DNA from: Nostoc edaphicum CCNP1411
GTDB lineage: Bacteria > Cyanobacteriota > Cyanobacteriia > Cyanobacteriales > Nostocaceae
NCBI RefSeq assembly: GCF_014023275.1
Contig: NZ_CP054698.1
Span: 7,029,001-7,093,000, forward strand
Length of the DNA: 64,000 nucleotides
Direction of reading: 5' to 3'
The notes under the pieces are model-generated. The model was given only the letters and a program-made list of their open reading frames with translations, had not been told where the DNA came from and ran no database searches. Position numbers and translations under genes: made by a program. Each line of letters opens with the position of its first letter. The first letter of the stretch is position 1. This document shows, one piece after another, positions 1,943-45,509 of this stretch.

Positions 1943-4900
1943 ATGGATAAACAATACTCAAATTTATCACCTGCGAAAAAAGCCCTTCTAGAAAAATGGA
2001 AGGGAGGAAAGTTTCAAGCTGATAAAATTCCCCAGCGTCAGTTTTCTAACAATATTCCCCTATCTTTCTCTCAACAAAGGCTGTGGTTTATTGACCAACT
2101 TTACCACGGGAGTTCTTTCTATAATATTTCCAGTGCCTTTCATTTAAAAGGATTGCTTAATATTACAGCACTGAAGCAAAGTCTTAATGAAATCCTCAAG
2201 CGTCATGAAGTTTGGCGCACAACTTTTGCACTTGTTAATGGAGAACCAGTGCAGGAGATAGCACCGGAATTAACTTGGGAATTACCCATTATTAACTTTG
2301 AGCATTTATCTGGCAAAAATTGGGAGCCTAATGTTAAAAAACTTGCAATTGATTCAGCAAAGAAACCCTTCAATTTAGCTAAAGGGCCTCTAGTGAGAGC
2401 AACTTTACTGCGCTTGGGTGAGGAAGAACACATTTTCCTTTTGACCATGCATCACATTATTACGGATGGATGGTCTATTGGTGTGTTTTTAGGAGAATTG
2501 GCAACGCTATATGCAGCGTTTGCTACAAATCAGCATTCTCCCTTACCCGAACTCCCCATTCAGTATGCAGATTTTGCGATTTGGCAGCGCGATCGCTTAC
2601 AAGGTAAAGTACTAGAAACCCAATTCAATTACTGGAAGCAACAACTGGGTGGCGAACTACCCTTACTCCAGTTACCTACAGATAATCCGCGTCCTGCTGT
2701 TACCACTTTTACTGGTGCAAAGCAATACTTTACGTTCTCTAAAACCTTAACAGATGCACTTAACCAATTAAGCCAGCGCGAAGATGTCACTTTATTTATG
2801 ACTTTGTTGGCAGCATTTAATACATTACTATACTGTTATACAGATCAAGAAGATATCCTAGTTGGTTCGCCAATTGCGAACCGTAACCGAGCCGAATTAG
2901 AAGGAATGCTGGGTTTATTTGTCAATACTTTGGTGTTGCGTAATAATCTCAGTGGTAATCCTCGCTTTTGCGAACTTCTACATCGAGTTCGTGAGGTGAC
3001 TCTCGACGCTTATGCACATCAAGATTTGCCTTTTGAGAAGCTTGTAGAACAATTGCAACCAGAGCGAGATTTAAGCCGGAATCCACTTTATGAAGTTATG
3101 TTTGTCCTGCAAAATACGCCAACGTCTATGCAGGAAGTTTCTGGTTTAACCTTGCGTCCTTTGCAGTTGGATAACGGTACGGCTCAGTTGGATATTTTCC
3201 TATCCATGTCCGAATCTCAACAAGGTTTAACAGGGTTTTTGGAGTACAACACGGACATTTTTGAGGATGCAACAATTACCCGGTTCATCAGTAATTTTCA
3301 AACTTTATTGGAAAGTATTGTTGTAAATCAAGAGCAGCACATATCCCAATTATCACTACTAACTGCTAAGGAGCGAGAGCAACTATTTGAATGGAACAAG
3401 ACCGAGGCAGATTATCCACAAAATGCCTCTCTACATCAATTATTTGAGCAGCAAGTCGAGCGATCGCCTGATAAATTAGCATTAATTAATCAAACCCAAG
3501 AACTGACTTATTCCCAACTTAACCAGAGGGTTAATCAGCTTACCCATTATTTACAAAAACAAGGTGTAGGACAAGAAACTCTTGTTGGTATTTGCCTCGA
3601 ACGTTCAGTAGAAATGGTTGTGGGGATTCTGGCTATTCTCAAAGCTGGTGGTGCTTACATTCCTCTCGATCCTAATTATCCAGTAGAACGCCTTGGATTC
3701 ATGCTGTCTGATTCTCAGGTATCGGTGTTAATCACCCAACAAGAGATATTAGAAAAACTGCCTGTATCTTCAGCTAAAATTGTTTGCCTAGACATCCACA
3801 AAGACGAAATTATTCAAGAAAGTCAGGAAAATCCTGTCAACACCTCAAAAGCTGATCATCTCGCCTATATTATCTACACTTCTGGTTCTACAGGCACTCC
3901 TAAAGGTGTTCTTGGTACTCATCGCGGTACAGTCAATGGTTTGCACTGGCTGTGGAAAAATTATCCTTTTACAAAAGAGGAAGTTTGTTGTCAAAAAACA
4001 GCTATTAGTTTTGTAGATTCAGTATGGGAGATTTTTGCACCATTACTTCAGGGAGCTCCCACTGTAATTATTCCTGATGCAATTGTGCTAGATCCACAAT
4101 TATTTATAGAAACTCTGGCAAATTACAAAGTGACGCGGATAGTACTTGTTCCTTCACTACTGCGCTTATTTTTTAATAGCTATAGTCATCTGATCAAAAA
4201 CTTATCACATCTAAAACTTTGGATAACTAGTGGCGAAGCACTATCTATTGATTTAGCTCAAACTTTCCGAAAACTAATGCCATTGGCAAAACTAATCAAC
4301 CTTTATGGTTCATCGGAAGTTTCTGCAAATGTCACTTACTACGACACTAGTTTGCTGACAGATAAATCAACTAGTGTTCCCATTGGTCGCCCTGTTGATA
4401 ATACCCAAATATATGTATTGAATGGTCATTTGAAAGCAAGCCCTGTAGGAGTGATTGGCGAACTTTATGTTGGTGGTGATGGATTAGCAAGGGGATATTT
4501 AAACCGTCTGGAATTAACTCAGGAACGCTTTATTAATAATCCCTTTGTTCCAGGAAATAAACTTTATAAAACTGGTGATTTAGCGCGTTATCTCAACGAT
4601 GGCAATCTTGAGTATTTGGGTCGCCGTGATGACCAGGTAAAAATTCGCGGCTTTCGGGTGGAACTGGGGGAAATTGTCGCAGCGATCGCACAACATCCAG
4701 ATGTGCGAGAATCGGTTGTTATTAACCAAGATCAGGCTCAAGACTCAAGTCGTCTGATTGCATATATCGTGACAGATAAGCAAGACATAGCGACACAACT
4801 GTTGCCTAAATTGCAACAAAAGCTGCCAAATTATATGATTCCATCTACTTTCGTAGTATTGGATGCAATACCCCTAACACCTAATGGGAAAGTAGATAAA

Positions 4901-6040
4901 CAAGCTCTGAGTGCGTCTACCCTTGCAACCGACCAGGTTATCCGGCAAAACGTCACTCAATCTTTTGTTGCTCCCCGAAATTTTACAGAATTAGGCTTGG
5001 TGAAGATTTGGGAAAATCTTCTGAATACTAAGCCGATTGGGGTAACAGATAACTTTTTTGATGTGGGTGGTCACTCATTTTTAGCAGTTCGCTTAATGGC
5101 TCAAATTTACGATCGATTTGGGCACAATCTTCCCCTATCTAATCTTTTTGAAAACCCAACTATTGAAAAACTAGCGACTATTGTCAGTCAGCCATTCCGT
5201 GATAGCTCCAGTTCTCCTCTAGTAGCAATTCAGTCTTCAGGTTCTAGGATGCCTTTCTTCTGTATACATGGTGCCGGTGGAGGTATTCGTAACTATTTCA
5301 ACTTGTCTAGAAGACTGGGTGAAGACTATCCGTTTTATGCTTTAGAACATATCCCTGGCCAAGAGGAACCTGAAATAATTTCAGTAGAGAAAACAGCAAC
5401 TCGCTATATCCAGGAAATTCGTCAGCGACAACCGAATGGCCCTTATCTTTTAGGTGGTTTTTGTTACGGTGGTGTCATTGCTTTTGAAATGGCACAACAA
5501 TTGCAAAGGCAAGGTCAAATCGTAGGTTTATTAGTTGTCATCGACGCTATATTACCTGAAACTACCATTAAACCAGGAGAGGATGATGATGCAAAATTCT
5601 TACTCCGCATGGCAGAATCGATTAAAACTAACAATAGTATAGACTTTTCAGTTCCTTTTGAAGAACTGCAAAATTTATCACTAGATGAGCAATTTCACTT
5701 GATAAATAAAAAAACAAACTTTATTTTTAGCGACACAGAGATTAAGGATTTTCTCCGCTATTACAAACTTTTCAAAGTTCATGTCCAAGCTATGCGAGAT
5801 TATGTCCCACAAGTTTATCCTCATCAAATGAATCTCTTTCGAGCGAATGAGGCAATTATTCATGACTTTCAAAGTCCAGAATTTCATACTGATGACCCCT
5901 TACTAGGTTGGGGCAAATATTCCAGCCAATCTATACAGGTCATTGAACTTCCAGGGGATCATTTCTCAATGTTCGTTGAACCTCATATTCAGGAATTAGC
6001 AAATCAGTTAAGAATTTGTATTGACAATGCTCACTCTTAG
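1943..6040 (+). CDS. Terminal NRPS module (C-A-PCP-TE)
   Basis: This protein of about 1365 residues condenses, loads and releases the last building block. The condensation domain (about 40-480) has HHIITDGWS near residue 170. The adenylation domain (490-1010) has YTSGSTGTPKG near 642. The carrier domain has GGHSF near 1040, and a thioesterase spans 1125-1365. In core A4 the pocket reads F-V-D-S-V-W, placing Asp at position 236 rather than 235. My full code reading is V-D-W-S-I-S-L-A-N-K, closest to beta-alanine-type pockets. The thioesterase nucleophile motif is GFCYG, a Cys where most have Ser, with His in GDHFS near 1337. ATG at 1943 is preferred to the upstream TTG at 1937; no good ribosome site is visible. 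The stop codon lies in the edge of a repeat element. Confidence 0.93.
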   Translation: MDKQYSNLSPAKKALLEKWKGGKFQADKIPQRQFSNNIPLSFSQQRLWFIDQLYHGSSFYNISSAFHLKGLLNITALKQSLNEILKRHEVWRTTFALVNGEPVQEIAPELTWELPIINFEHLSGKNWEPNVKKLAIDSAKKPFNLAKGPLVRATLLRLGEEEHIFLLTMHHIITDGWSIGVFLGELATLYAAFATNQHSPLPELPIQYADFAIWQRDRLQGKVLETQFNYWKQQLGGELPLLQLPTDNPRPAVTTFTGAKQYFTFSKTLTDALNQLSQREDVTLFMTLLAAFNTLLYCYTDQEDILVGSPIANRNRAELEGMLGLFVNTLVLRNNLSGNPRFCELLHRVREVTLDAYAHQDLPFEKLVEQLQPERDLSRNPLYEVMFVLQNTPTSMQEVSGLTLRPLQLDNGTAQLDIFLSMSESQQGLTGFLEYNTDIFEDATITRFISNFQTLLESIVVNQEQHISQLSLLTAKEREQLFEWNKTEADYPQNASLHQLFEQQVERSPDKLALINQTQELTYSQLNQRVNQLTHYLQKQGVGQETLVGICLERSVEMVVGILAILKAGGAYIPLDPNYPVERLGFMLSDSQVSVLITQQEILEKLPVSSAKIVCLDIHKDEIIQESQENPVNTSKADHLAYIIYTSGSTGTPKGVLGTHRGTVNGLHWLWKNYPFTKEEVCCQKTAISFVDSVWEIFAPLLQGAPTVIIPDAIVLDPQLFIETLANYKVTRIVLVPSLLRLFFNSYSHLIKNLSHLKLWITSGEALSIDLAQTFRKLMPLAKLINLYGSSEVSANVTYYDTSLLTDKSTSVPIGRPVDNTQIYVLNGHLKASPVGVIGELYVGGDGLARGYLNRLELTQERFINNPFVPGNKLYKTGDLARYLNDGNLEYLGRRDDQVKIRGFRVELGEIVAAIAQHPDVRESVVINQDQAQDSSRLIAYIVTDKQDIATQLLPKLQQKLPNYMIPSTFVVLDAIPLTPNGKVDKQALSASTLATDQVIRQNVTQSFVAPRNFTELGLVKIWENLLNTKPIGVTDNFFDVGGHSFLAVRLMAQIYDRFGHNLPLSNLFENPTIEKLATIVSQPFRDSSSSPLVAIQSSGSRMPFFCIHGAGGGIRNYFNLSRRLGEDYPFYALEHIPGQEEPEIISVEKTATRYIQEIRQRQPNGPYLLGGFCYGGVIAFEMAQQLQRQGQIVGLLVVIDAILPETTIKPGEDDDAKFLLRMAESIKTNNSIDFSVPFEELQNLSLDEQFHLINKKTNFIFSDTEIKDFLRYYKLFKVHVQAMRDYVPQVYPHQMNLFRANEAIIHDFQSPEFHTDDPLLGWGKYSSQSIQVIELPGDHFSMFVEPHIQELANQLRICIDNAHS

Positions 6041-33000: not shown

Positions 33001-33663
33001 TTAACTCCTCTGAGTCAGGCTAGTAATTCGCAACGGAGGAATTGTCAACACAGTTCCAGGATTTAAAATACGAGGATTGTTTAAGCGATTTTCTGCGGCA
33101 ATTACACGCCATAAACCCGGATCTCCATATTCTTCAGTGGCGATACTACTTAAAGTTTCTCCTCGTTTAACTATTCTCACAGGATCATCAATGGGATTAG
33201 CAATCTTTGCCTTTTTTTTCGGTTCTTTCCATTCTTTAAATTTACAGGTTAAGGTGGCTCTGACAGGCGTACCATCTTCAAGAAAATGAGTCAGTTTTTT
33301 AGTAACACTTTCTAAAAAACCATCAGGTAATAACAAGCTATCTTTACCCGATATAGTTCCCCAAATTAGTTGACAACGAGGGGGACGTTTGGGATTTTTG
33401 CCAATGCGAGGCTGAGTCAAACTAAAAATTTTGCGGGTATAGTTTTGGACATTTTCTGGGGGAAATCCTATCAGCGTGGTGTCAAAGAACAAATCAAGAC
33501 TAAGTTGAGTTAATTCTTTAGATGCAACTGGGCCATAATTTCCCATTGACCAGCCTGTTTTGACAATTTCCACTTGATTAGGGTTAAAAAGAACTTTAAA
33601 TTTATCAGCAAAGTCTCCTGGGTTATTTTTTTCAGCTTTGATAGTTAATTTCTCTAGTGCCAT
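33001..33663 (-). CDS. LysM-domain baseplate hub protein (Afp7/Cis7-type)
   Basis: A 220-residue protein. The first 150 residues have an LFNPNQVEIVK start and an LSLDLFFDTT strand, characteristic of gp53/Afp7-like inner baseplate proteins. Residues 165-215 form a LysM domain (VKRGETLSSIATEEYGDPGLW, then NPGTVLTIPP). In these systems LysM stabilises the tube-hub junction rather than binding peptidoglycan. The gene overlaps the upstream open reading frame by 10 bp. Confidence 0.88.
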   Translation of the reverse strand: MALEKLTIKAEKNNPGDFADKFKVLFNPNQVEIVKTGWSMGNYGPVASKELTQLSLDLFFDTTLIGFPPENVQNYTRKIFSLTQPRIGKNPKRPPRCQLIWGTISGKDSLLLPDGFLESVTKKLTHFLEDGTPVRATLTCKFKEWKEPKKKAKIANPIDDPVRIVKRGETLSSIATEEYGDPGLWRVIAAENRLNNPRILNPGTVLTIPPLRITSLTQRS

Positions 33664-35078
33664 CGATTTTTTCCTCTGCGTTCACTTTCAATTACTAACC
33701 GTCGCATTAGTTTGCGTTCAACTTGACTAGCGATAGCATCAACATCAATATTGGATTGAGTTGCTATTGGCGAAACCGAGGTTTCTGTTGGTAATACAGG
33801 ACTGGTGAAACTTCTAGGAGGTGATGAAGAATCCGTATTTGATATTGAATTGCGGTTCGGTAGGTTCGATTGCTGGCTATTACTCTTTGATGATGGTGTA
33901 GCTTTAGCTATGGGTAAAGGCAAAGATTCAGTTTTTAAGGATGGGTTACTTGGAGAAGTTACAGAGACAACAGGAAGAGGAGATATGTTTTGCTTGTGAT
34001 TACTTTGATTAATTTGTGGGGTAGAAATAGTAACAGGTTGTTTGTTGAGGGTCGTTGCAGGTTGATTTTGAAAAGTTGGTGAATTGATAGCAAATGATAT
34101 TTTTTGCTTATTCAAATTAACTTGAGGAGTTAGAGGTTGTGCAGTGACAATGGGAAGTTGTTTTGAGGAGATTTGATATATTAAGTTTTCGTGCTTGACT
34201 AAGCTTATATTGTCTCCATAATTATCTGCTTGTGTTTCTTGTTGGTCAGCTAAATTATTTAAATCATTAACAATAGGAAGAGATGGCTGTGATCTGGAAT
34301 CAATCTGGAGTTTTGCTTGAATAATAGGTAGTGTGACATCAGGAAGGCTGGGAAATTCTTGTGATGACAACATTTCTGCTGTTTGTGGCAATTGTTCAGC
34401 TATGGATTGTGGCGAAACTATGGGAATTTCTGATGAAGAGAAAGAAATGCTATCTACAATTGTTTGAGATGGGTGATTGAGATTTGATTCAGCGCTATTA
34501 GGTAAAGATGTTTGCGAGTTTGTCAAATCTACTAACGCCATTTCTGCTATTTTTGGTAATTGTTCAGCAATGGGTTGTGGCGAAACTACTGAAACTTCAG
34601 ATGAAGATGTAAGGGTTTTATTAATTGGCGTTTCTAAAGTGAAAGATTGGGTTGTGTCATCTGTAAAATTAGAAATTGATAAATCTGTAATATTTTGTGT
34701 AGGAATAGTATTACTAACTGTTCTAATTGGTAAAGATTGAGAAGAATCTATTTTTCTTTGAATTACATTAGGCGAAGGCTCAACTTGGGAGACAGTTGGC
34801 AGAGAATTATGTACCCTATTCTCTACTTCTTGTTCTTTTGCTAATGAAACAGGCTGTGCATAAACAATCGGCATAGGCTCAGATGATAGGGTATTAGTAT
34901 TACCCCAGCGTTGCATTTGTTGATTCAAAAGAGGCAAACGATTTAAAAAGCGATCGCAACGATTAATAATGCGCTGACTCATCGCCATTTTCATCATTCC
35001 CGGTTGACGCAAGGGACGATGTAGGCGATTTACCAACCCCTCATCAAGTGAATCTTGCCAATTAGATAAGTTTGCCAT
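33654..35078 (-). CDS. Long disordered protein with conserved ends, injection-system associated
   Basis: A 474-residue protein dominated by Ser, Pro, Gln, Thr and Asn with no membrane helix. The N-terminus is structured and basic (NRLHRPLRQPGMMKMAMSQR). The centre carries repeated phrases such as IVSPQSIAEQLPQTAEM and MPIVYAQPVS / LPIVTAQPLT. The C-terminal 30 residues form a charged helix (DVDAIASQVERKLMRRLVIE). Its place between tube and LysM genes and the conserved-looking ends suggest a structural linker. I cannot assign a named family. No tape-measure protein is otherwise visible, so a length- or assembly-related role is conceivable but speculative. Confidence 0.75.
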   Translation of the reverse strand: MANLSNWQDSLDEGLVNRLHRPLRQPGMMKMAMSQRIINRCDRFLNRLPLLNQQMQRWGNTNTLSSEPMPIVYAQPVSLAKEQEVENRVHNSLPTVSQVEPSPNVIQRKIDSSQSLPIRTVSNTIPTQNITDLSISNFTDDTTQSFTLETPINKTLTSSSEVSVVSPQPIAEQLPKIAEMALVDLTNSQTSLPNSAESNLNHPSQTIVDSISFSSSEIPIVSPQSIAEQLPQTAEMLSSQEFPSLPDVTLPIIQAKLQIDSRSQPSLPIVNDLNNLADQQETQADNYGDNISLVKHENLIYQISSKQLPIVTAQPLTPQVNLNKQKISFAINSPTFQNQPATTLNKQPVTISTPQINQSNHKQNISPLPVVSVTSPSNPSLKTESLPLPIAKATPSSKSNSQQSNLPNRNSISNTDSSSPPRSFTSPVLPTETSVSPIATQSNIDVDAIASQVERKLMRRLVIESERRGKNRWH

Positions 35079-35180: not shown

Positions 35181-35663
35181 CTATAACTTAGAAATACCTT
35201 GATGCACCAATTCAATTTTTTCTACAGCAATTTCATCGCTACTAGCGTTAAAGCTTGGCCCTTCCCACTTGACAGGATATGCTTTTTTAAATGTCCACCA
35301 CATCACCGGGATTTGCTGACTATTAAGCAAGAGAATCGTACCGTTCAACTGCTGAATCCACCCTTGACTAGTTGCTTGATACCAAATATAAAACAAATCA
35401 ATATTCACCAATCCTCGACTCAAAATCAAATTTGGATAGGTAGTATGTTTGGGGAATTTATGAGTAAAATCATTTAAGCCTCCTTCCTGATAAGATTCCA
35501 ACTCAATTTCGCTACTTAAACCGCTAACCTCGCTAAAACCACCAATAACAACTCCTCCAATTTCCACGGCAAAATTATAAGCCATGTAGGGATCGTGTCC
35601 CAGTAAACTGGCTGTTGAACCTGCGGCTAAAGCTGCATTGAGTGCGATAAGATTGGGATTCAT
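35181..35663 (-). CDS. Tube protein, gp19-like (second copy)
   Basis: A 160-residue inner-tube protein: PYMAYNFAVEIGGVVIGGFSEVSGLSSEI at the start and FNASSDEIAVEKIELVHQGI at the end, the standard gp19/Hcp-like signature. It diverges from the first tube gene in the middle and has an extended N-terminus (MNPNLIALNAALAAG). Such second tube proteins usually form the layer next to the baseplate. ATG at 35663 after AGGAA is chosen over the TTG at 35678. It begins 11 bp after the stop of the start-less reading frame at 35675. Confidence 0.92.
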   Translation of the reverse strand: MNPNLIALNAALAAGSTASLLGHDPYMAYNFAVEIGGVVIGGFSEVSGLSSEIELESYQEGGLNDFTHKFPKHTTYPNLILSRGLVNIDLFYIWYQATSQGWIQQLNGTILLLNSQQIPVMWWTFKKAYPVKWEGPSFNASSDEIAVEKIELVHQGISKL

Positions 35664-35674
35664 TTTTTTCCTGT

Positions 35675-35833
35675 TCAATCGCTAAGTCGCTGATTAATTT
35701 GTGCTACCTGCGTCACCCACTGCTGACGTTCTCGGTGTTCCATTGTCATAATCTGTTCGTAAGACCAATGAAAATGGTAGGCAAGGTAAGCTACCTCCTC
35801 CAGCAGTCTTTCTGTGGGGTAGCAAACTACTCC
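35675..35833 (-). CDS. DUF6760-like short reading frame without a start codon, probably made by -1 frameshift
   Basis: This frame encodes about 52 residues with a clear conserved core (CYPTERLLEEVAYLAYHFHW and EQIMTMEHRERQQWV) that I recognise as the short DUF6760-type protein found beside tube genes in contractile systems. Between the preceding in-frame TGA and the core there is no ATG, GTG or TTG; the first ATG falls after half of the core. The frame overlaps the end of the upstream chaperone gene in the -1 register, and slipping on the G-run would join ETIPVG to GVVCYPTER. Expected product: about 171 residues. A rare start codon is the alternative. Confidence 0.7.
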   Translation of the reverse strand, partial: GVVCYPTERLLEEVAYLAYHFHWSYEQIMTMEHRERQQWVTQVAQINQRLSD

Positions 35834-35836
35834 CCC
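35790..35836 (-). promoter_or_regulatory. Candidate -1 programmed frameshift signal (G5 run plus hairpin)
   Basis: On the minus strand, GTG GGG GAG TAG ends the chaperone frame. The run of five G (35832-35836) lets the Gly-GGG tRNA re-pair after a -1 slip. Eight bases after the run a hairpin begins: GCTACC (35818-35823) pairs with GGTAGC (35790-35795), with inner CCA/TGG and CAG/CTG pairs closing an AAAGA loop. Spacing of 5-9 bases is usual for frameshift stimulators. Confidence 0.5.
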
Positions 35837-36189
35837 ACGGGAATAGTTTCCACTTCAAACTCTCCGTCACAGTGGGGACAAGCTACCCGCAAACGACTAT
35901 GACCGTTTTGGTTAATCCTTTGATAAAAATCCTGTAAATAGACTAAATCTCCTGAAAATAAACCCTCAATTATTTTGGTATTAATTTGGTCTAATGTTCC
36001 TAGTTGGACTATCGTCCTTGCTAAGAGAATAATCACCAAATAACCAGGGTTTTTTTGCACCCTTGGATCTCGGATGGGGGCAATTTCATCATAGGCAGTG
36101 GAAAGGCGCATTATGCCTTCACGGTGAGTGTTACTTTCCGAGTCGAGATATCCTTGAGGCAAGATAAAAGGAAATTCAGTTTGCTGCAT
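35827..36189 (-). CDS. T4-type baseplate hub assembly chaperone-like protein with Zn-ribbon tail
   Basis: A 120-residue protein with FILPQGYLDSESNTHREGIMR, DPRVQKNPGYLVIILLARTI and IEGLFSGDLVYLQDFYQRIN. This pattern fits the family related to T4 baseplate hub assembly chaperones that is found in contractile injection clusters. The C-terminus has CPHC plus GEFEVE, half of a zinc-ribbon-like site. It lies between the two tube genes, the place where phages keep tail-assembly chaperones. The final codons overlap a conserved second frame, so a longer fused form may also be produced. Confidence 0.82.
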   Translation of the reverse strand: MQQTEFPFILPQGYLDSESNTHREGIMRLSTAYDEIAPIRDPRVQKNPGYLVIILLARTIVQLGTLDQINTKIIEGLFSGDLVYLQDFYQRINQNGHSRLRVACPHCDGEFEVETIPVGE

Positions 36190-36209: not shown

Positions 36210-36650
36210 TTAACCAATGGTGATACCTTCATGAACTAATTCGAGAGTTTCTATCGCTACTTCGTCTGAGGTAGCATTAAAATCTGGAGCATTCCAAGTA
36301 GTAGGCCAACTATTTTCTAAATTCCAACGAATTTTTTCTTCTCCTTTATCATCAGCCAAAATAATGGAAAGATTACGCCGATCTGTTTCACCGTTTTGTA
36401 ATTTTTTGTGCCATTCCCACAGTTCTTTATTGTCGGTAATTCCCCGTTTTAGGGTAATGTTGCCATAAGTATTAAGACCGGGAATTTGACGTTGGCTTAA
36501 TGCTTTATCTGTTCCTTCTCGGTAAGTTCCTGCGTTACGAGTCGCTGTTAAACCGCTACATTCACGAAAACCAGCATGGACAATACCATCCCATTCCACC
36601 CAGAAATTATAACCACTGTATGGGTCGTGAGGATTAGAAATTGTGGGCAT
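36210..36650 (-). CDS. Tube protein, gp19-like (first copy)
   Basis: A 146-residue inner-tube protein with PYSGYNFWVEWDGIVHAGFRECSGL at the N-terminus and FNATSDEVAIETLELVHEGI at the C-terminus. A strong ribosome site AGGAGG lies 8 bases before the ATG, unlike most genes in this cluster, consistent with a major structural subunit made in many copies. It should form the bulk of the tube inside the sheath. Confidence 0.93.
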   Translation of the reverse strand: MPTISNPHDPYSGYNFWVEWDGIVHAGFRECSGLTATRNAGTYREGTDKALSQRQIPGLNTYGNITLKRGITDNKELWEWHKKLQNGETDRRNLSIILADDKGEEKIRWNLENSWPTTWNAPDFNATSDEVAIETLELVHEGITIG

Positions 36651-36901: not shown

Positions 36902-38008
36902 TCATATCAATGTAATTCCGCTACTACTTTGAACAACTAAAAGTTGAATAAATTCCCCTGGAATAGTGGGGGCTAAACCAACTTCTGCTATTACTTGTCC
37001 CATTTCTCGATTTTCAGGGGGATTAGTTTCGGCATCACATTTGACATAAAATGCCTCTTGGGGCAAAGCACCTTGGATAGCACCTTGTCGCCATAAAGAT
37101 TCACAATAAACGCTTAATTCCCTTTGCAGTCGCACCCATAAAGGAAAAGCATTGGGTTCAAAGACTGTATCCGCTAAGTTACGATTTACCCAGCGTCCAA
37201 AGGTGAGAAATAAGCGACGCACGTTGACATATTGCCATTCAGCGATGGGGCTGAGGGTACGCACTCCCCAGACTCGCATACCTCGTCCTTGGAAGCTGCG
37301 AATACAATTGACTCCCGCTGCGTTTTTTGGATTCAGCTGTTCTTGGTCTGTGGGAGTCAGGGGAAAACTGAGATCCAGTACCCCTGCAAGTGGAATATTA
37401 GCAGGTGCGCCATGTACTCCGACTGTGCGATCGCAACTTGCATAAATTCCGGCAATATGACCACAGGGAGGAATCGCTTCTAAACGATGTTCTACTTTTA
37501 ACCAAGGTGCATATAATGCCCCATTGTGGCTAGCAAGTCCTCGGCGTTGCCAATCTAGTTTTTCGCCATCATTCAAAGCATCAAGAATGGCAAAGCGATC
37601 GCCCATCTGCTCGCAATGTTTTAAAATAGCTTGCTGCTTTTGAATAACTTCCGCATCTGAACCAATTATGATGTCGGGAACACAAACCAAATCAACATTC
37701 TCTAAGACTTCGCTAGTCTCTAAACCTTGTTGGAGAGCCTTAAGAGTATTGTCAGATAAGGCTATAACATAACAAAGACGACCTCCGTTTTCAAAAAATC
37801 CTTTGATTGCATCTGCTAAATATCCCTTGGCTTGACCAAAATATTGCTGAAAATGCGTCACCAAGGTTAGCTTTTTTGGTTCGTTCACTCCCTCTTTAAG
37901 CGATGTCAAGCCAAAGAATACCGGAACACCTGTCAGTAACTCAGGTTCTGGAGTAGGAACGACATAGTTTAAAGAGATACCTGGTATTTTTGGCTTTAAA
38001 GTCGGCAT
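36902..38008 (-). CDS. Contractile sheath protein, short form
   Basis: A 368-residue sheath subunit. The C-terminal domain carries the sheath signature QEAFYVKCDAETNPPE and a following GLAPTIPGEFI strand. The central part has CGHIAGIYASCDRTVGVHGAPAN and RVWGVRTLS. The N-terminus lacks the YLSPGVYVEE arm of the long sheath and is rich in Pro. It is about 110 residues shorter than the other sheath. The start codon lies in the last unit of a tandem repeat without an obvious ribosome site. Confidence 0.92.
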   Translation of the reverse strand: MPTLKPKIPGISLNYVVPTPEPELLTGVPVFFGLTSLKEGVNEPKKLTLVTHFQQYFGQAKGYLADAIKGFFENGGRLCYVIALSDNTLKALQQGLETSEVLENVDLVCVPDIIIGSDAEVIQKQQAILKHCEQMGDRFAILDALNDGEKLDWQRRGLASHNGALYAPWLKVEHRLEAIPPCGHIAGIYASCDRTVGVHGAPANIPLAGVLDLSFPLTPTDQEQLNPKNAAGVNCIRSFQGRGMRVWGVRTLSPIAEWQYVNVRRLFLTFGRWVNRNLADTVFEPNAFPLWVRLQRELSVYCESLWRQGAIQGALPQEAFYVKCDAETNPPENREMGQVIAEVGLAPTIPGEFIQLLVVQSSSGITLI

Positions 38009-38221
38009 TTGTCATTTGTCATTTGTCATTTGTCATTGGTCATTGGTCATTATTTTCAGTGGGGAGTAGGGAAAAACCACTTTCATACTTGCCTGTGAAA
38101 CTTGTTTCCTTGAGATAACCTCCCACCTCCCACCTATTGCCTATTGCCTATTGCCTATTTGCCTATTGCCTATTTGCCTATCCCCTATCCCCTATCCCCT
38201 ATCCCCTATCCCCTATCCCCT
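38009..38221. repeat. Two short-tandem-repeat arrays between the sheath genes
   Basis: Next to the start of the short sheath gene are units of CATTTGT and CATTGGT (38009-38049). From about 38125 to 38220 runs an array of TATTGCC, TATTTGCC and TATCCCC units that ends at the stop of the long sheath gene. In total about 210 bp, almost all low complexity. Confidence 0.85.
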
Positions 38222-39665
38222 ACGTTCCCGTCCCAGTCCATTGACTCAGACGGAAAATCACGAATTCTGCCGGCTTCACCACTGCTAGACCAATCTCTGT
38301 GACAACTTGACCCAAATCCCGCACTTCTGGGGGGTTGGTTTCGGCATCACATTTCACATAAAAGGCTTCTTGGGGTGTTGTGCCAAATAATGCTCCTTTG
38401 CGCCACTCTATCAATAAAAAAGCACTGATATTGCGGCGGATTTTTGCCCATAGTTCGGGGGTATTGGGTTCAAAAACTGTCCATTGAGTCCCTTTATCAA
38501 TGGAGTCTCGCAGGTAACTAAAATGACGGCGAATATTGACGTATTTAAACTCTGTATTTGCATCTCCACCCAAGGTACGCGCACCCCAAACGCGGATATT
38601 CCCGTTTAACTTGCGAATAACGTTAATTCCATCGGGATTAAGCCCATCTTGTTTGGCTTTGCTGAGATTATATTTTAAATCTAAGGCTCCCAAAATAGTT
38701 TCATTGGCAGGGGCTTTGTGTACTCCCCTTTGGCCATCAACCCGTGCATAAATTCCTGCAATATGACCGCTTGGGGGAACATAAATATTGCTATTACTTG
38801 CAGGATCGAAAACTTGAATCCACGGGAAATACAATGCTGCATAGGCAGAGTTGAAGGGTTTAAGGGTATTTACAACTCCTGTGCTGCTAAGGTCGATGGT
38901 ATCTAGACTATCCAGAATCGCAATGCGATCGCCTAGTTTTTCCGCATGGTCTTTGATATCATCTCTGAGGGCTAAATTTCCTGGTGCAGCGACGATAGTG
39001 ATTTCATCAATAGCTTCAAAAGCATCTAAAACACCAGCAAGTTGATTTTCTCCAGATATCCAGGTGACATAACAACGAGTTCCACCATTTCTGAAAAAGC
39101 CATAAACTGCATGAGCTAAGGTGTTTTGTCCTTGGGTATCGCCACTAGGTGGTAAAAAGTCACCAAAGAATTTCTTAAATTCACTAAAGTTTGTGATTAA
39201 TTTAATTTCCCCTTCTTGAGCGATGTTGGAGTCGCTGGGAATTACTGTTACAGGTAGTTGAACTTGGTAATATCCAGTAATTTTTTCCCCTGAAGGAATC
39301 GCATCTTTAAATTTTACGGTTGCAGATTTGTCTGCATCGCTATTGGTAATAGGGTTTGTATCATCTAAATTAACAGGACTCCCACCAACGAAGAAGCCAT
39401 AAGTCCCCACTGTGGTAACTAGTGGATAATCTCCTGATAATAGGGAATAATTCTTTTGGTTTCCACCTTTACCTTCACCAATCTCAACTGGACTTGTAGG
39501 GCTACCCACAGACTTAATTGAGGTGTTGTTAGTATTAGTTGATGACCAAGCATTGGCTTTAATCGTGCCAATAAAAGCGGCAATACTGGTTCCAACTCCT
39601 ACAATTGGGGCAGAACCGGAAGCTATTTCTTCAACGTAAACACCTGGAGAAAGATAGGTTGGCAT
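38220..39665 (-). CDS. Contractile sheath protein, long form
   Basis: A sheath subunit of about 481 residues. The canonical start MPTYLSPGVYVEEI follows AAGGAG, so ATG at 39665 is chosen over the TTG at 39713. The C-terminus has QEAFYVKCDAETNPPEVRDLGQ and the terminal strand EFVIFRLSQW. Residues 75-160 form an extra surface domain missing in the short sheath. The pair would co-assemble or build different layers of the sheath; contraction of it drives the tube outward. Confidence 0.95.
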   Translation of the reverse strand: MPTYLSPGVYVEEIASGSAPIVGVGTSIAAFIGTIKANAWSSTNTNNTSIKSVGSPTSPVEIGEGKGGNQKNYSLLSGDYPLVTTVGTYGFFVGGSPVNLDDTNPITNSDADKSATVKFKDAIPSGEKITGYYQVQLPVTVIPSDSNIAQEGEIKLITNFSEFKKFFGDFLPPSGDTQGQNTLAHAVYGFFRNGGTRCYVTWISGENQLAGVLDAFEAIDEITIVAAPGNLALRDDIKDHAEKLGDRIAILDSLDTIDLSSTGVVNTLKPFNSAYAALYFPWIQVFDPASNSNIYVPPSGHIAGIYARVDGQRGVHKAPANETILGALDLKYNLSKAKQDGLNPDGINVIRKLNGNIRVWGARTLGGDANTEFKYVNIRRHFSYLRDSIDKGTQWTVFEPNTPELWAKIRRNISAFLLIEWRKGALFGTTPQEAFYVKCDAETNPPEVRDLGQVVTEIGLAVVKPAEFVIFRLSQWTGTGT

Positions 39666-39805
39666 TTCATTAGCTCCTTGATATAAGTAAGAAGGCAAAT
39701 AGGGAATAGGCAATAGGCAATAGGTATAAGAGTTTTAGCTTAGTTTATTTTTCCTCATATAGTTGATTATTGTGCCTATTTACTTATCCTAAAAAAATTG
39801 AGTAT

Positions 39806-41043: not shown

Positions 41044-41454
41044 AATCTAAACAATGTTTGTTTTATGACACTGCTCATTTTGAAAGCTTATGAAAGAAAA
41101 TAACTGCTAGTTCAAAATAATACAACCAGTTATTAGCTTTATGAATAAAATATACATGAAAAATTGTCAAGAATATTGTAACTATTAGTAATATTTGCAA
41201 AAACTGTAATTTCACAAAAATCTGCTAAAATCGATTGATTCAATTTAAAACAAGGAATTTGACGTTGCAAAATCTTGCTGCAACGGTAATAATTGGGTTG
41301 GACATTTCTCAGTGTCATGAAATACCAATGTAATAATTTAGGCTGTTAATACTATATATAATAAATACGCAAAAACTATAAGTTACATAAATACTTAAGT
41401 ATATTTAAGCAGTATTTTTTATTGCAATCCCTAATCGAATGCCGGAGATTAACT
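41044..41454. promoter_or_regulatory. Divergent promoter region of the injection-system cluster
   Basis: About 410 bp of very AT-rich DNA between the minus-strand structural operon and the plus-strand effector gene, so both promoters must be here. No specific operator was identified. A GGAG ribosome site lies before the ATG at 41455. Confidence 0.5.
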
Positions 41455-43212
41455 ATGTACCGAAAACAAATATTTCAAAAAGTTGCACCCTCACTGCCAT
41501 CAACGCCAATAAGTAAAGAGATTGCCTCTAGTCCTAGTTATGGATCATTGTCTTCAGTTGTGCAGAGAGTCCAACAAGACCCAAATAGCTTGAGTGGGGA
41601 TGAGAGACAGGAGTTAGAGAGTGCGATCGGTTCCAGGTCAACGCGAGAGATTTTAGCGGGTAAGCAAACCTCGTGGGTTCCTGAATTTCAAGGTATTTCC
41701 GCGCAGCTGTGGGATGATGCTGGGCAGGTGGATGCACCCATCCAAGCGAAGGGAAATAACGATGTTGGAATGTCTGAGGTACAACCAGAAAACAGAACGG
41801 GATTACCAGATAACCTGAAAGCCGGGATAGAAAATCTCTCTGGAATGGTGATAGATGATGTGAAGGTTCACTACAATTCCTCTAAACCCGCTGAGTTGCA
41901 AGCGTTAGCCTACACACAAGGGACGGATATTTATGTTGCACCAGGACAAGAGCAGCATTTACCTCATGAAGCTTGGCACATCGTCCAGCAGGCGCAGGGC
42001 CACGTAAAGCCGACTAGGCAGATGAAAAGTGGGATTTCAATCAATGATGATAAGGGGCTGGAGCATGAAGCAGATGTGATGGGAGCTAAGGCTATGAGCG
42101 CCAGCCATAGCTTACCAAGAAGGCAATTGCAACTGCACGCATCGCCGCCAAGCAATGCGCCCATACAAGGTTTCTTTCAGGTTGATTCCAATCGCATTTC
42201 AGAAAATATGAATATCGTCTGGGAAGGACAAAAAGATGTCTATGCAACAGCCACTCAATTTACCACATCCAATTTGGTACTCGATATTAAAGGTAGCAAA
42301 TACTTATTACACCAAGGCGTGGCTAAAAATTACGGCGGCAATACCACTTATTATCGTGTTGAACCACGTTTAAATCCCCGCACAACAACGGCTGAAGAAC
42401 AAGACTTGCAGCCGACCATGGGGGATGATGACGAAATGCTGAGGTCAAAGCATGAAAGCTATATGCAAGAACTCCGCTGGGTCGAAGAAGATCTGGAAGA
42501 GTTCAAAAACGATTTTGCCAATGAAATAAGCCATGATCCCAACTGGCGCAAAAAGTTAAGCAGAAAAGGGATCATCGGTATGCGCCTCAATAATTGGTGT
42601 CGTGCTGCACCATATCGGCATGACTTACTGTTTATAGAGCTAGCACAAGTCACGCTTGAATATGAAAATCACGAAAGTCTAGAAACCATGACTAGAGATA
42701 TAGCTAAGGTTCAAGTCAAATTCCAGGCATTTGTGAATCGTGAAAATGCTTATCCGCGTGCTATCGCGCTCCCCAATGATTGCGCTCAGTGCGTCAGCGA
42801 GCTGGTAGGCGGAGAAGCAGCCCGAGAGCGCGGCAACAAAAACCCCGATATTGGCGGCAATTACCATGAAACATTACGCAGTCCTAAAAATAATTCATTG
42901 GGATGGAACTTCCACTGGGCTGGCGTGATTATGAAAGATGGCGGTGATAATGTATCACTGGAAAGTGCAGCGGGTATGTCTATGACCAATTATGATCGCC
43001 AAACGTGGTGGTTTGCCATGTACGGTACTCAAAAACCAGAGCAAACCTTCAAACACCAGATTCAGGAGTTCCATTACAAACGCAACATTTCCCTCCTCTT
43101 GAAGCAACTCCCAAATGGAATCGAAAATTATCGTTTTGGAACAGATTTTGGATTGATTTTAGACATCCAACAAATGAAACAAGCACTAAAAGATTTGAAT
43201 GGTGATGGATAA
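41455..43212 (+). CDS. DUF4157 eCIS-associated protein, candidate effector
   Basis: A protein of about 585 residues. The N-terminal 90 residues (DPNSLSGDERQELESAIG, WVPEFQGISAQLWDDA) match the leader of DUF4157 proteins. DUF4157 spans about 110-215, with the metallopeptidase-like motif HEAWH near 171-175 and GLEHEADVMG following. DUF4157 is the best-known marker of eCIS cargo. The C-terminal 330 residues have PNDCAQCV near 443 and FHWAGV near 487, a Cys-His arrangement that would suit a papain/NlpC-like hydrolase. ATG at 41455 after CGGAG is chosen over TTG at 41422. Loading into the particle is inferred from family knowledge. Confidence 0.85.
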   Translation: MYRKQIFQKVAPSLPSTPISKEIASSPSYGSLSSVVQRVQQDPNSLSGDERQELESAIGSRSTREILAGKQTSWVPEFQGISAQLWDDAGQVDAPIQAKGNNDVGMSEVQPENRTGLPDNLKAGIENLSGMVIDDVKVHYNSSKPAELQALAYTQGTDIYVAPGQEQHLPHEAWHIVQQAQGHVKPTRQMKSGISINDDKGLEHEADVMGAKAMSASHSLPRRQLQLHASPPSNAPIQGFFQVDSNRISENMNIVWEGQKDVYATATQFTTSNLVLDIKGSKYLLHQGVAKNYGGNTTYYRVEPRLNPRTTTAEEQDLQPTMGDDDEMLRSKHESYMQELRWVEEDLEEFKNDFANEISHDPNWRKKLSRKGIIGMRLNNWCRAAPYRHDLLFIELAQVTLEYENHESLETMTRDIAKVQVKFQAFVNRENAYPRAIALPNDCAQCVSELVGGEAARERGNKNPDIGGNYHETLRSPKNNSLGWNFHWAGVIMKDGGDNVSLESAAGMSMTNYDRQTWWFAMYGTQKPEQTFKHQIQEFHYKRNISLLLKQLPNGIENYRFGTDFGLILDIQQMKQALKDLNGDG

Positions 43213-43376: not shown

Positions 43377-45509
43377 GTGGACTCGATAGCCGCAGGAGCG
43401 CAGATATTTACCAAACCCATCTCCCAAGCAGTAGAAATTAGTCCTGATTTAAATGGGTTGCAACCTCTGCTGCAACGATTAGATTGGTTAATCAAACAAG
43501 AAATTTTCGCTCTGCAAACCCAGGAAAAAGTTGAGGTAAAAGTCGAAGTTTCATGGTTGAAACAAACTGAAATCTCATCAGAGCAATCGTCTATTACAAT
43601 TCGGTCAGATTCGCTCTTAGTATGGTTGCAAAATACTTTTGGTTTATCTAGCTTTGACTTGGATATACTGGCTATTTCCCTAGCACCAGAATTAGATCGT
43701 CACTATGAACGAGTTTATGGCTATCTCCAGGATGATATGAGTAACAAAAGACCTACAGTAGATATGGTCTTAAACTTGCTCTGTTCTAGCGTTCCTGAAA
43801 AGCTATCACGACGTAAGCATTTTACTACTAACTCACCCCTAATTAACCACCGTCTGCTCCATCTCTGCCCAGAACCTCATCAGCAGCAATCTACGCTTCT
43901 TTCTCATCGTCTAATACTCGACTCCCAAGTGGTGAGGTTGTTATTACATCAACCGGGGTTAGATTCCCGACTCACTTCTTGTTGTCAACTACTAGAACCA
44001 ACCATATATTTTGATACTTTATATCTCAAGGCAAATGTACAAACAGCACTAGAAGCCTTGTTGATAGAAGATTGGCAGAAACAACAACCCCTACTGCTCT
44101 ATTTTCAAGGAACTGATCGCACGGGTAAACGCCGCACCGCCCAAATCCTCGCCAAAAGCCTGGATGTTTCCTTGTTAATCGCCGACTTAGCACGGATGGT
44201 AGAGGATAAAGTTACCTTTGAGGAAAAACTGCAACTTTTATGGCGAGAAGCCTGGTTTTTTCACCGTTTGCTGTATCTGGATAACCTCGATATTCTCTAC
44301 CTACCGGAAAATCAAATTCTCTATCAATCCTTCCTCAAAGAACTAGAGAACAATCGGGGTATAACCATCCTCGCAGGGGTGCAAAATTGGATACCCACAG
44401 CTATGGGTGCAACCGGGTTAATTACAGTTCCCTTTACAATTCCTGAGTCTAGTCAACGCAGACAATGTTGGCAAACTCACCTAAAAGCAGCACAGATAAC
44501 TGTTGAGGATCGAGAGTTAGATGTATTGAGCGATCGCTTTCTGCTAACCCCAGACCAAATTGCCGATGCTGTCGCTACTGCCTATAATACCGCCCGTTGG
44601 CAACAAATTGACTCAACTAAAGAAAAATCACTACCCTCATTTTTAAACTTATGTAGTGCAGCTCGCGCTCAATCAGGTCACGATTTAGCTAGCCTCGCCT
44701 GTAAAATCGAACCAAAATATACCTGGGATGATATTGTATTACACCCCAACCAAATCACACAACTACAAGATATTTGCAAAGAAGCAGAATACCGAGATTT
44801 AGTACATCAAAAATGGGGTTTTGCAGATAAACTATCTTTAGGAAAAGGTCTAAATGTTCTGTTTTCTGGTTCTTCCGGTACAGGTAAAACAATGGCAGCA
44901 GAGGTGATTGCCCATCAACTGCAACTAGACCTTTATAAAATTGATTTGTCTCAAATAGTTAGTAAATACATCGGCGAGACAGAAAAAAATCTCAATCGCA
45001 TTTTTACTGCTGCAACCAATTCTAATGCCATTCTTTTTTTCGATGAAGCTGATGCCTTGTTTGGCAAACGTTCTGAGGTGCAAGATGCCCGCGATCGCTA
45101 CGCCAATATCGAAGTAGGTTATCTGTTGCAAAAAATGGAAGAGTATGAAGGTATTGCAATTTTAACTACAAATCTTCGTAGCAATATTGACGAAGCTTTT
45201 GAGCGGCGACTCCGATTTATTATTGAGTTTACCTTACCAGATACAAAGAATCGTCACCTAATTTGGCAGAGAATTTTCCCAAAAAATGCCCCCTGTAGCC
45301 ACAATCTTGATTTAGAATTATTGGCACAAAATTTTGAGATTACGGGGGCTAATATTCGCTATATTGCGCTGACAGCAGCTTTTCTAGCAGCAGATGATGG
45401 GGGAGTAATTGAGATGGTACATTTAATTCGAGCGCTGCGTCGAGAGTATCAGAAAATGGGACAAATTATCAGGGATAAGGATTTAGGTCAATATGTAGAT
45501 TTGCGTTGA
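43377..45509 (+). CDS. AAA+ ATPase of the injection system (Afp15/Cis15-type)
   Basis: A 710-residue protein with a helical N-terminus and two AAA modules. The first has a degenerate P-loop (QGTDRTGKRR, near 245). The second is complete: GSSGTGKT near 497, ILFFDEADALFGKR near 553, TTNLRSNIDEAFERR with the arginine finger. This architecture matches Afp15-like ATPases found in nearly all extracellular contractile systems, where they act in assembly or cargo handling. GTG at 43377 follows AAGGA by 8 bases. It sits 164 bp after the DUF4157 gene. Confidence 0.92.
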   Translation: MDSIAAGAQIFTKPISQAVEISPDLNGLQPLLQRLDWLIKQEIFALQTQEKVEVKVEVSWLKQTEISSEQSSITIRSDSLLVWLQNTFGLSSFDLDILAISLAPELDRHYERVYGYLQDDMSNKRPTVDMVLNLLCSSVPEKLSRRKHFTTNSPLINHRLLHLCPEPHQQQSTLLSHRLILDSQVVRLLLHQPGLDSRLTSCCQLLEPTIYFDTLYLKANVQTALEALLIEDWQKQQPLLLYFQGTDRTGKRRTAQILAKSLDVSLLIADLARMVEDKVTFEEKLQLLWREAWFFHRLLYLDNLDILYLPENQILYQSFLKELENNRGITILAGVQNWIPTAMGATGLITVPFTIPESSQRRQCWQTHLKAAQITVEDRELDVLSDRFLLTPDQIADAVATAYNTARWQQIDSTKEKSLPSFLNLCSAARAQSGHDLASLACKIEPKYTWDDIVLHPNQITQLQDICKEAEYRDLVHQKWGFADKLSLGKGLNVLFSGSSGTGKTMAAEVIAHQLQLDLYKIDLSQIVSKYIGETEKNLNRIFTAATNSNAILFFDEADALFGKRSEVQDARDRYANIEVGYLLQKMEEYEGIAILTTNLRSNIDEAFERRLRFIIEFTLPDTKNRHLIWQRIFPKNAPCSHNLDLELLAQNFEITGANIRYIALTAAFLAADDGGVIEMVHLIRALRREYQKMGQIIRDKDLGQYVDLR

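Follow-up and report, generated by a model that had tools for sequence, protein, structure and literature searches.

How is a conserved protein made when its reading frame offers no ordinary start codon? The question is raised by a contractile injection system in the window (the whole stretch of DNA analyzed, 64,000 nucleotides of Nostoc edaphicum CCNP1411, contig NZ_CP054698.1, positions 7,029,001 to 7,093,000), where a short DUF6760 frame overlaps the 3' end of a chaperone gene in the −1 register (Table 1). Besides the genes tabulated, the operon holds hub, spike, gp25, and baseplate-J genes. By Pfam, the gene set of an extracellular-type contractile injection system (eCIS) is present: two sheaths, two gp19 tubes, CIS_tube/LysM, Phage_base_V, gp25, and Baseplate_J, and further AAA, Pvc16_N, and eCIS_core, with GPD just below the cut-off. 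From the layout of the junction and its recurrence in other genomes, both read from sequence, we conclude that it is very probably a programmed −1 frameshift, real and conserved.

Table 1. Features of the injection-system locus and of the chaperone/DUF6760 junction (window coordinates)
Feature	Position	Strand	Remarks
Sheath genes (two)	38220-39713; 36902-38008	−	
Tube protein 1, gp19 type	36210-36650	−	Directly upstream of the chaperone gene
Chaperone gene	35827-36189	−	120-aa 0-frame product; C-terminus ...PVGE, then TAG 35829-35827
Predicted chaperone-DUF6760 frameshift product	35675-36189	−	171 aa = 119 + 52 codons, derived by arithmetic; predicted junction ETIPVG|GVVCYPTER
Possible Shine-Dalgarno-like stimulator, GAAGTGGAA	35848-35856	−	Weak; protein constraint fits as well
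DUF6760 open frame, whole	35675-35854	−	Overlaps the chaperone gene in the −1 register
Slippery heptamer G_GGG_GAG, chaperone frame	35836-35830	−	
DUF6760 extension after a −1 slip	35675-35833	−	52 codons, GGA 35833 to 35678; stop (TGA) 35677-35675
Hairpin	35823-35790	−	Arms GCTACC 35823-35818 and GGTAGC 35795-35790
Tube protein 2, gp19 type	35181-35663 (scanned as 35181-35678)	−	Directly downstream of DUF6760
474-aa low-complexity ORF	33654-35078	−	Between tube 2 and the LysM tube gene; sub-threshold Pfam match
LysM CIS-tube gene	33001-33663	−	
596-aa protein with eCIS_core domain	41422-43212	+	Candidate cargo protein; adjoins AAA ATPase gene 43377-45509

In its own frame the window chaperone gene ends GTG GGG GAG TAG, with a CPxC zinc-ribbon-like motif close to the C-terminus of the protein; the minus-strand letters around the junction read ...GAAGTGGAAACTATTCCCGTGGGGGAGTAGTTTGCTACCCCACAG...GGAGGAGGTAGC... 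The DUF6760 frame matches PF20546 (E = 5.4e-14, Pfam). A preliminary description of this DNA, made from its letters, had proposed that this frame has no start and that it overlaps the chaperone gene in the −1 register at a run of five G. Both points are borne out by the window sequence: the frame, open from 35854 to 35675, contains no ATG, GTG, or TTG ahead of its core, and the overlap falls on the G5 run at 35832-35836. The downstream hairpin of that description is present as well, at a distance that has to be restated: the spacer is 6 nt when counted from the end of the heptamer (35830), the earlier 8 nt being the distance from the end of the G-run. Folding of the 71-nt window segment gives −27.9 kcal/mol (z = −2.81). 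Neither window protein (chaperone, DUF6760) matched NCBIfam, and the single Rfam match over 35600-36000 (E = 0.73) is taken as chance. The same genome holds a second DUF6760 copy (L001, G000:C6:2519537-2519695), in which this G5 slip site and this hairpin recur (GGGGGAGTCCTAAGCTACC).

We collected junctions from a scan of genome contigs (the best 80 of 137 loci) and from Pfam-based censuses. DUF6760 is found in 106 of 388 genomes of the window's cyanobacterial class, for which all 118 places were fetched, and in 22 of 251 genomes in the phylum of a Chloroflexota MAG, 19 of 296 in that of a Streptomyces, 7 of 378 in that of a Paraburkholderia (3 of them above the cut-off), 6 of 148 in that of an archaeal record, 60 of 140 in that of a Polyangia MAG, and 1 of 149 in that of a Holophagales MAG; we infer the phylum names of the censuses. 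Every listed place was fetched in the censuses other than Myxococcota, where 30 of 67 were. The 284 loci gave 259 distinct junctions: 19 duplicates, identical over 135 nt, were merged; L194, L244, and L246 have no match to the DUF6760 profile and were dropped, as were L245 and L247 (below the Pfam cut-off) and L189 (which runs off its contig). L195 was retained despite a Pfam score below the cut-off. Bacillota are represented by a MAG (L077) and by a Paenibacillus plasmid (L290) that lies outside the 259.

The frame relation seen in the window is almost invariant among these relatives. Of 253 upstream ORFs with 70 aa or more, 249 are recovered by a profile grown from the window chaperone. When the three forward frames are searched, a chaperone segment adjoins DUF6760 in 249 loci and stands in the −1 register in 247 of them; the two exceptions, L158 and L170, have probably lost the register through indels. 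Start codons (ATG, GTG, or TTG) are absent between the upstream stop and a conserved Tyr codon in 122 of the 259 junctions, and one lies at most six codons away in 69. Of the 240 loci with a G5 run (described below), 179 have no start within 13 codons upstream of the Tyr, 17 have an ATG there, and 44 have GTG or TTG. The codon that follows the Gly pair (n = 234) is ATC (70), GTA (34), GTC (29), ATA (27), ATT (24), GTT (18), GTG (12), ATG (7), or GCN or AGC (13): a hydrophobic residue is kept, and the composition is not that of a start site. RefSeq annotation splits the locus into a 'phage tail assembly protein' and a 'DUF6760'. In a Nostoc plasmid (L286, 2522-2692) the latter is annotated from ATA, and in a Rhodococcus plasmid (L287, 2549-2692) from an internal TTG, a sign of a frame without an ordinary start.

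An in-register G5 run (NNG GGG G) is found at 240 of the 259 distinct junctions, against a background of 12 in 11,637 codon positions of the chaperone body. GGG makes up 17-27% of the other Gly codons. The heptamers at the 240 loci are GGGGGAA (115), GGGGGAG (85), GGGGGGG (20), GGGGGGA (18), and others (2). The distance from the slip codon to the conserved Tyr codon is exactly 14 nt in 234 of the 240, and 214 have one or two sense codons between the slip codon and the 0-frame stop. Included in the 240 is L234, although it is apparently ATGA-coupled and without a hairpin (z = 0.04). Seven of the 19 loci without G5 carry another in-register heptamer of the form XXXYYYZ (background, 52 of 11,637): GGGAAAA in L097, GGGAAAG in L161 and L241, GGGAAAT in L248 and L249, CCCCCCG in L277, and TTTTTTT in L195. 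GGGAAAG is the heptamer of lambda; the parallel with lambda is one of mechanism. In the two archaeal loci, L248 and L249, the chaperone is longer and the GGGAAAT stands in register a few codons before the stop, in place of the G-run. The other non-G5 loci have GGAAAAG (three), GGGGAAR (two), or a coupled ATG or GTG start (six), and one (L228) is not clearly of any class. L097 and L253 are ambiguous because an ATG also lies near the junction.

The preliminary description had asked whether the start-less frame, the G-run, and the hairpin would be conserved in cyanobacterial loci. All three recur well beyond them, across Cyanobacteria, Chloroflexota, Actinomycetota, Myxococcota, Pseudomonadota, Bacillota, and Methanoperedens-type archaea, and the G5-bearing junctions span seven phyla, one of them archaeal.

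To assess the hairpin, we compared the 54 nt from the codon before the Tyr with random synonymous recodings at the 240 G5 loci. The mean z is −2.96, with 96% of loci below −1 and 85% at or below rank 0.05, as against −0.50, −0.42, and −0.70 in three control windows. By source, the mean z is −3.22 in Cyanobacteria, −2.80 in the contig scan, −2.21 in Chloroflexota, −1.78 in Actinomycetota, −3.55 in Myxococcota, −4.02 in archaea (n = 2), and −0.98 in Pseudomonadota (n = 1). We count it against the frameshift reading that the effect is weaker in Actinomycetota and absent in the sole pseudomonad census locus with G5.

Base-pairing was examined in two alignments thinned by identity, A1 (101 of 204 eligible sequences) and A2 (23 of 30), in both of which the G5 columns are conditioned on having G5. 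In A1, 85.3% of cells pair, as against 27-54% when the partner is slid by one to three columns. Both sides have changed in 55 cells, compared with 29.4 after shuffling (0 of 500 shuffles), and the covariation score is 0.142, compared with 0.100 (0 of 500). Pairs with a double change show no excess over shuffles in A1 (6 vs. 4.9; 90 of 500), which counts against the frameshift reading, and further pair types show none either (19 vs. 18.5; 253 of 500). The clearest pair, columns 13-48, is GC in 54 sequences, CG in 11, AU in 6, UA in 3, GU in 1, and unpaired in 26. The 23 Streptomyces-type sequences differ in this stretch: a different stem, which includes a 10-bp run, occupies this position, and 90.1% of its cells pair. 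Two further points count against the frameshift reading. RNAalifold, given the whole 70-mer, prefers to pair the G-run with CCCC, a pairing that a ribosome on the slip site would presumably block; and when the heptamer is removed, the proposed stem is recovered weakly and only partially.

Constraint on synonymous sites is highest at the slip site and in both arms of the stem. We scanned 14 codons at the end of the chaperone and 48 of DUF6760, with 120 of the 240 loci used for pair statistics, and found a ratio of observed to expected codon identity of about 0.9-1.5 at most positions. The slip codons (−1 and 0) score 3.66 and 3.87, values that are conditioned on G5. The 5' arm of the hairpin scores 3.89, 1.77, and 2.65, and the 3' arm 1.40, 1.72, 2.95, and 1.54. 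Relatives favor GTG GAG codons at the Shine-Dalgarno-like position, 18 and 15 nt upstream, where the ratios are 1.91 and 1.23; these codons are possibly a Shine-Dalgarno-like stimulator. Chaperone codon −2 (the counterpart of window positions 35839-35841), two codons ahead of the slip codon, has an unexpectedly high ratio of 2.15, and is CGC in 52 of the 240 loci.

Translational coupling would account for the junction in another way: ribosomes that terminate at the chaperone stop would re-initiate in the overlapping frame at ATGA or GTGA, or at a weak start (ATA, ATT, GTA), and make two separate proteins. Six of the 259 junctions (L082, L233, L235, L236, L238, and L239) do lack a slip site and have a coupled ATG or GTG start; the preliminary description had named homologues that start normally as evidence against a frameshift. 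An NTGA start/stop overlap lies beside the slip site in 54 of the 240 G5 loci (GTGA 39, ATGA 13, TTGA 2), so re-initiation may take place there, alongside slippage or instead of it, and coupling also agrees with the ATA at which RefSeq starts one copy. However, no start of this sort occurs in the window, 179 of the 240 loci with G5 are free of one across the 13 codons that precede the Tyr, and GTC, GTT, GCN, or AGC may also stand after the Gly pair. Nor would coupling account for the hairpin, the G-run, or their constant spacing (234 of 240). Where actinobacterial loci bear a start, the conserved stem is not formed (z = −2.65 in L233, 0.04 in L234, −1.99 in L235, 0.02 in L236, −1.01 in L238, and −1.04 in L239), although two of these still fold well in another way and L082, which has its own start, retains the stem (z = −3.23). 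We therefore consider coupling an improbable account of the junction. The actinobacterial group itself (L233, L235, L236, L238, and L239, with L234, which resembles them yet sits in the G5 count) seems to have exchanged frameshifting for coupled starts.

The run of five or six G at the junction could also invite the polymerase to gain or lose a G, part of the mRNA then encoding the fusion. Such a run is short for polymerase slippage, the junction persists in the absence of any long run where the heptamer is GGGAAAG, GGGAAAA, GGGAAAT, or GGAAAAG, and a hairpin 5-6 nt downstream fits a ribosome; we regard this route as very improbable. That the frame break is an accident of this genome, through sequencing error or gene decay, is scarcely credible. 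Indels probably lie behind the off-register loci L158 and L170, but the −1 arrangement is present in 247 of 249 loci and in the second eCIS copy of the same genome (L001), and an accident is already contradicted because the census repeats the arrangement. Re-initiation, transcriptional slippage, and sequence error are thus each rejected as the general mechanism.

With high confidence, we take the best explanation to be a −1 slip on G_GGG, aided by the hairpin, through which one gene yields both a 120-aa chaperone and a 171-aa chaperone-DUF6760 fusion. Most ribosomes would terminate at the TAG at 35829 and release the shorter protein. A fraction would slip back by one base on G_GGG, the P-site Gly-tRNA re-pairing GGG with GGG; the hairpin 6 nt past the heptamer would promote this step, and the slipped ribosomes would read on in the DUF6760 frame to complete the fusion. 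What the sequences show is the conserved frame relation, slip site, and hairpin, together with the kinship to the P2 E and E' families described below; the occurrence and rate of slippage, and the roles of the two forms, are inferred. We would give even chances to the broader proposal that the DUF6760 systems of at least seven phyla (one archaeal) depend on a single inherited G5 and hairpin signal, which sets the ratio of short to long chaperone.

Both halves of the junction have relatives in phage tails. With a limit of E = 1, phrog_508 ('tail assembly chaperone') is found in 36 of 37 chaperone relatives (best, 6.6e-11) and PF10109 (Phage_TAC_7) in 11 of 37 (best, 5.1e-6), and PF06528 (Phage_P2_GpE) in 23 of 51 DUF6760 relatives (best, 5.5e-5). 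Profile alignment (hhalign) of DUF6760 to the P2 E' extension gives a probability of 94 and E = 1.1e-7. P2 gpE is itself PF10109, and its E' extension PF06528. Against this we count that Pfam gives no match to the chaperone of the window itself, which resembles phrog_508 only weakly (E = 0.011), and that the chaperone profile gave no alignment with P2 gpE alone. A tblastn search with the window DUF6760 found no match at E = 1 in 50,697 phage records, and the chaperone profile had no match among solved structures. DUF6760 matched designed proteins (E = 0.0013 and 0.0026) and one further structure at E = 0.6, which we set aside as too weak to be meaningful.

The annotated order in P2 (AF063097) is sheath, tube, E/E+E' by −1 frameshift, and T, a putative tail length determinator. 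As proposed for the eCIS loci, a PF10109 chaperone is extended by PF06528 through a −1 frameshift 3' of the sheath and tube genes, and a tube gene lies upstream of the chaperone in 158 of the 178 eCIS loci with 1 kb of upstream sequence. The parallel with phage tails that the preliminary description drew for the corresponding map position, near the tube gene, extends to the P2 E and E' families themselves. Because of the family matches, the DUF6760-E' alignment, and the P2 gene order, we read the chaperone/DUF6760 pair as most likely the eCIS counterpart, by descent, of P2 E/E+E'. There are differences: P2 slips on a T-run, whereas the eCIS junction has a G-run and a downstream hairpin, and unlike in P2 the eCIS chaperone ends in a zinc-ribbon-like motif, and in the window the pair is followed by a second tube gene. 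Contractile-tailed T4-like phages likewise have a two-part tail chaperone, made reportedly by a mechanism other than frameshifting, to go by the title of a 2022 study by Vladimirov, Gautam, and Davidson. In lambda, one report describes a −1 frameshift in G/GT, close to the tube gene, that gives a short and a long tail chaperone (PMC5009743). Another gives GGGGGAA as the slip motif of the tail chaperones of about a thousand annotated phages (PMC10885494). Actinobacteriophage tail assembly chaperones thereby share the commonest heptamer found here (115 of 240); these are phages, not injection systems, and the likeness is at the level of the motif.

No frameshift is described for any system of the extracellular type in the literature that we searched, which included eCIS papers but neither supplements nor the majority of subscription journals' papers. 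The name DUF6760 occurs in no paper of that literature. This kind of frameshift is known from phages and is, as far as we searched, new for this class of machine. If our reading is correct, current annotation overlooks both an assembly factor of these systems and a step of translational control; if the broader proposal holds as well, the frameshift would be among the most widespread programmed frameshifts in cellular genomes. The junctions would also provide a large natural comparison set for a chromosomal −1 frameshift signal.

Homology with P2 E/E+E' and the lambda G/GT analogy suggest that the short form may coat or bind a tape-measure-like protein, and that the extension may recruit tube subunits and so start the tube. 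According to two reports, S. coelicolor and S. venezuelae are without a typical tape measure (PMC10066040; PMC12237407); the latter, published in eLife in 2025, states that S. coelicolor particles are identical in length and that a tape-measure gene is absent. In S. davawensis, a tape-measure-related effector is reported (PMC11126660). On the broader proposal, systems reported to be without a tape measure, such as the Streptomyces systems, would conceal length control of the tape-measure type. Since related systems have the chaperone pair, and since chaperones of this kind work on the tape measure in lambda (PMC5009743), the question of length becomes directly testable.

The window holds no proven tape measure; its 474-aa ORF sits near the position expected for a tape-measure gene. 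A second chaperone-like gene stands in tandem, immediately 5' of the one with the proposed frameshift, in L014, L141, L152, L160, and other cyanobacterial loci among those listed. On a Streptomyces plasmid (L292), a large hypothetical gene (2685-5171; about 3 kb, cut at the end of the stretch) directly follows DUF6760 and occupies the place of P2's tail length gene T.
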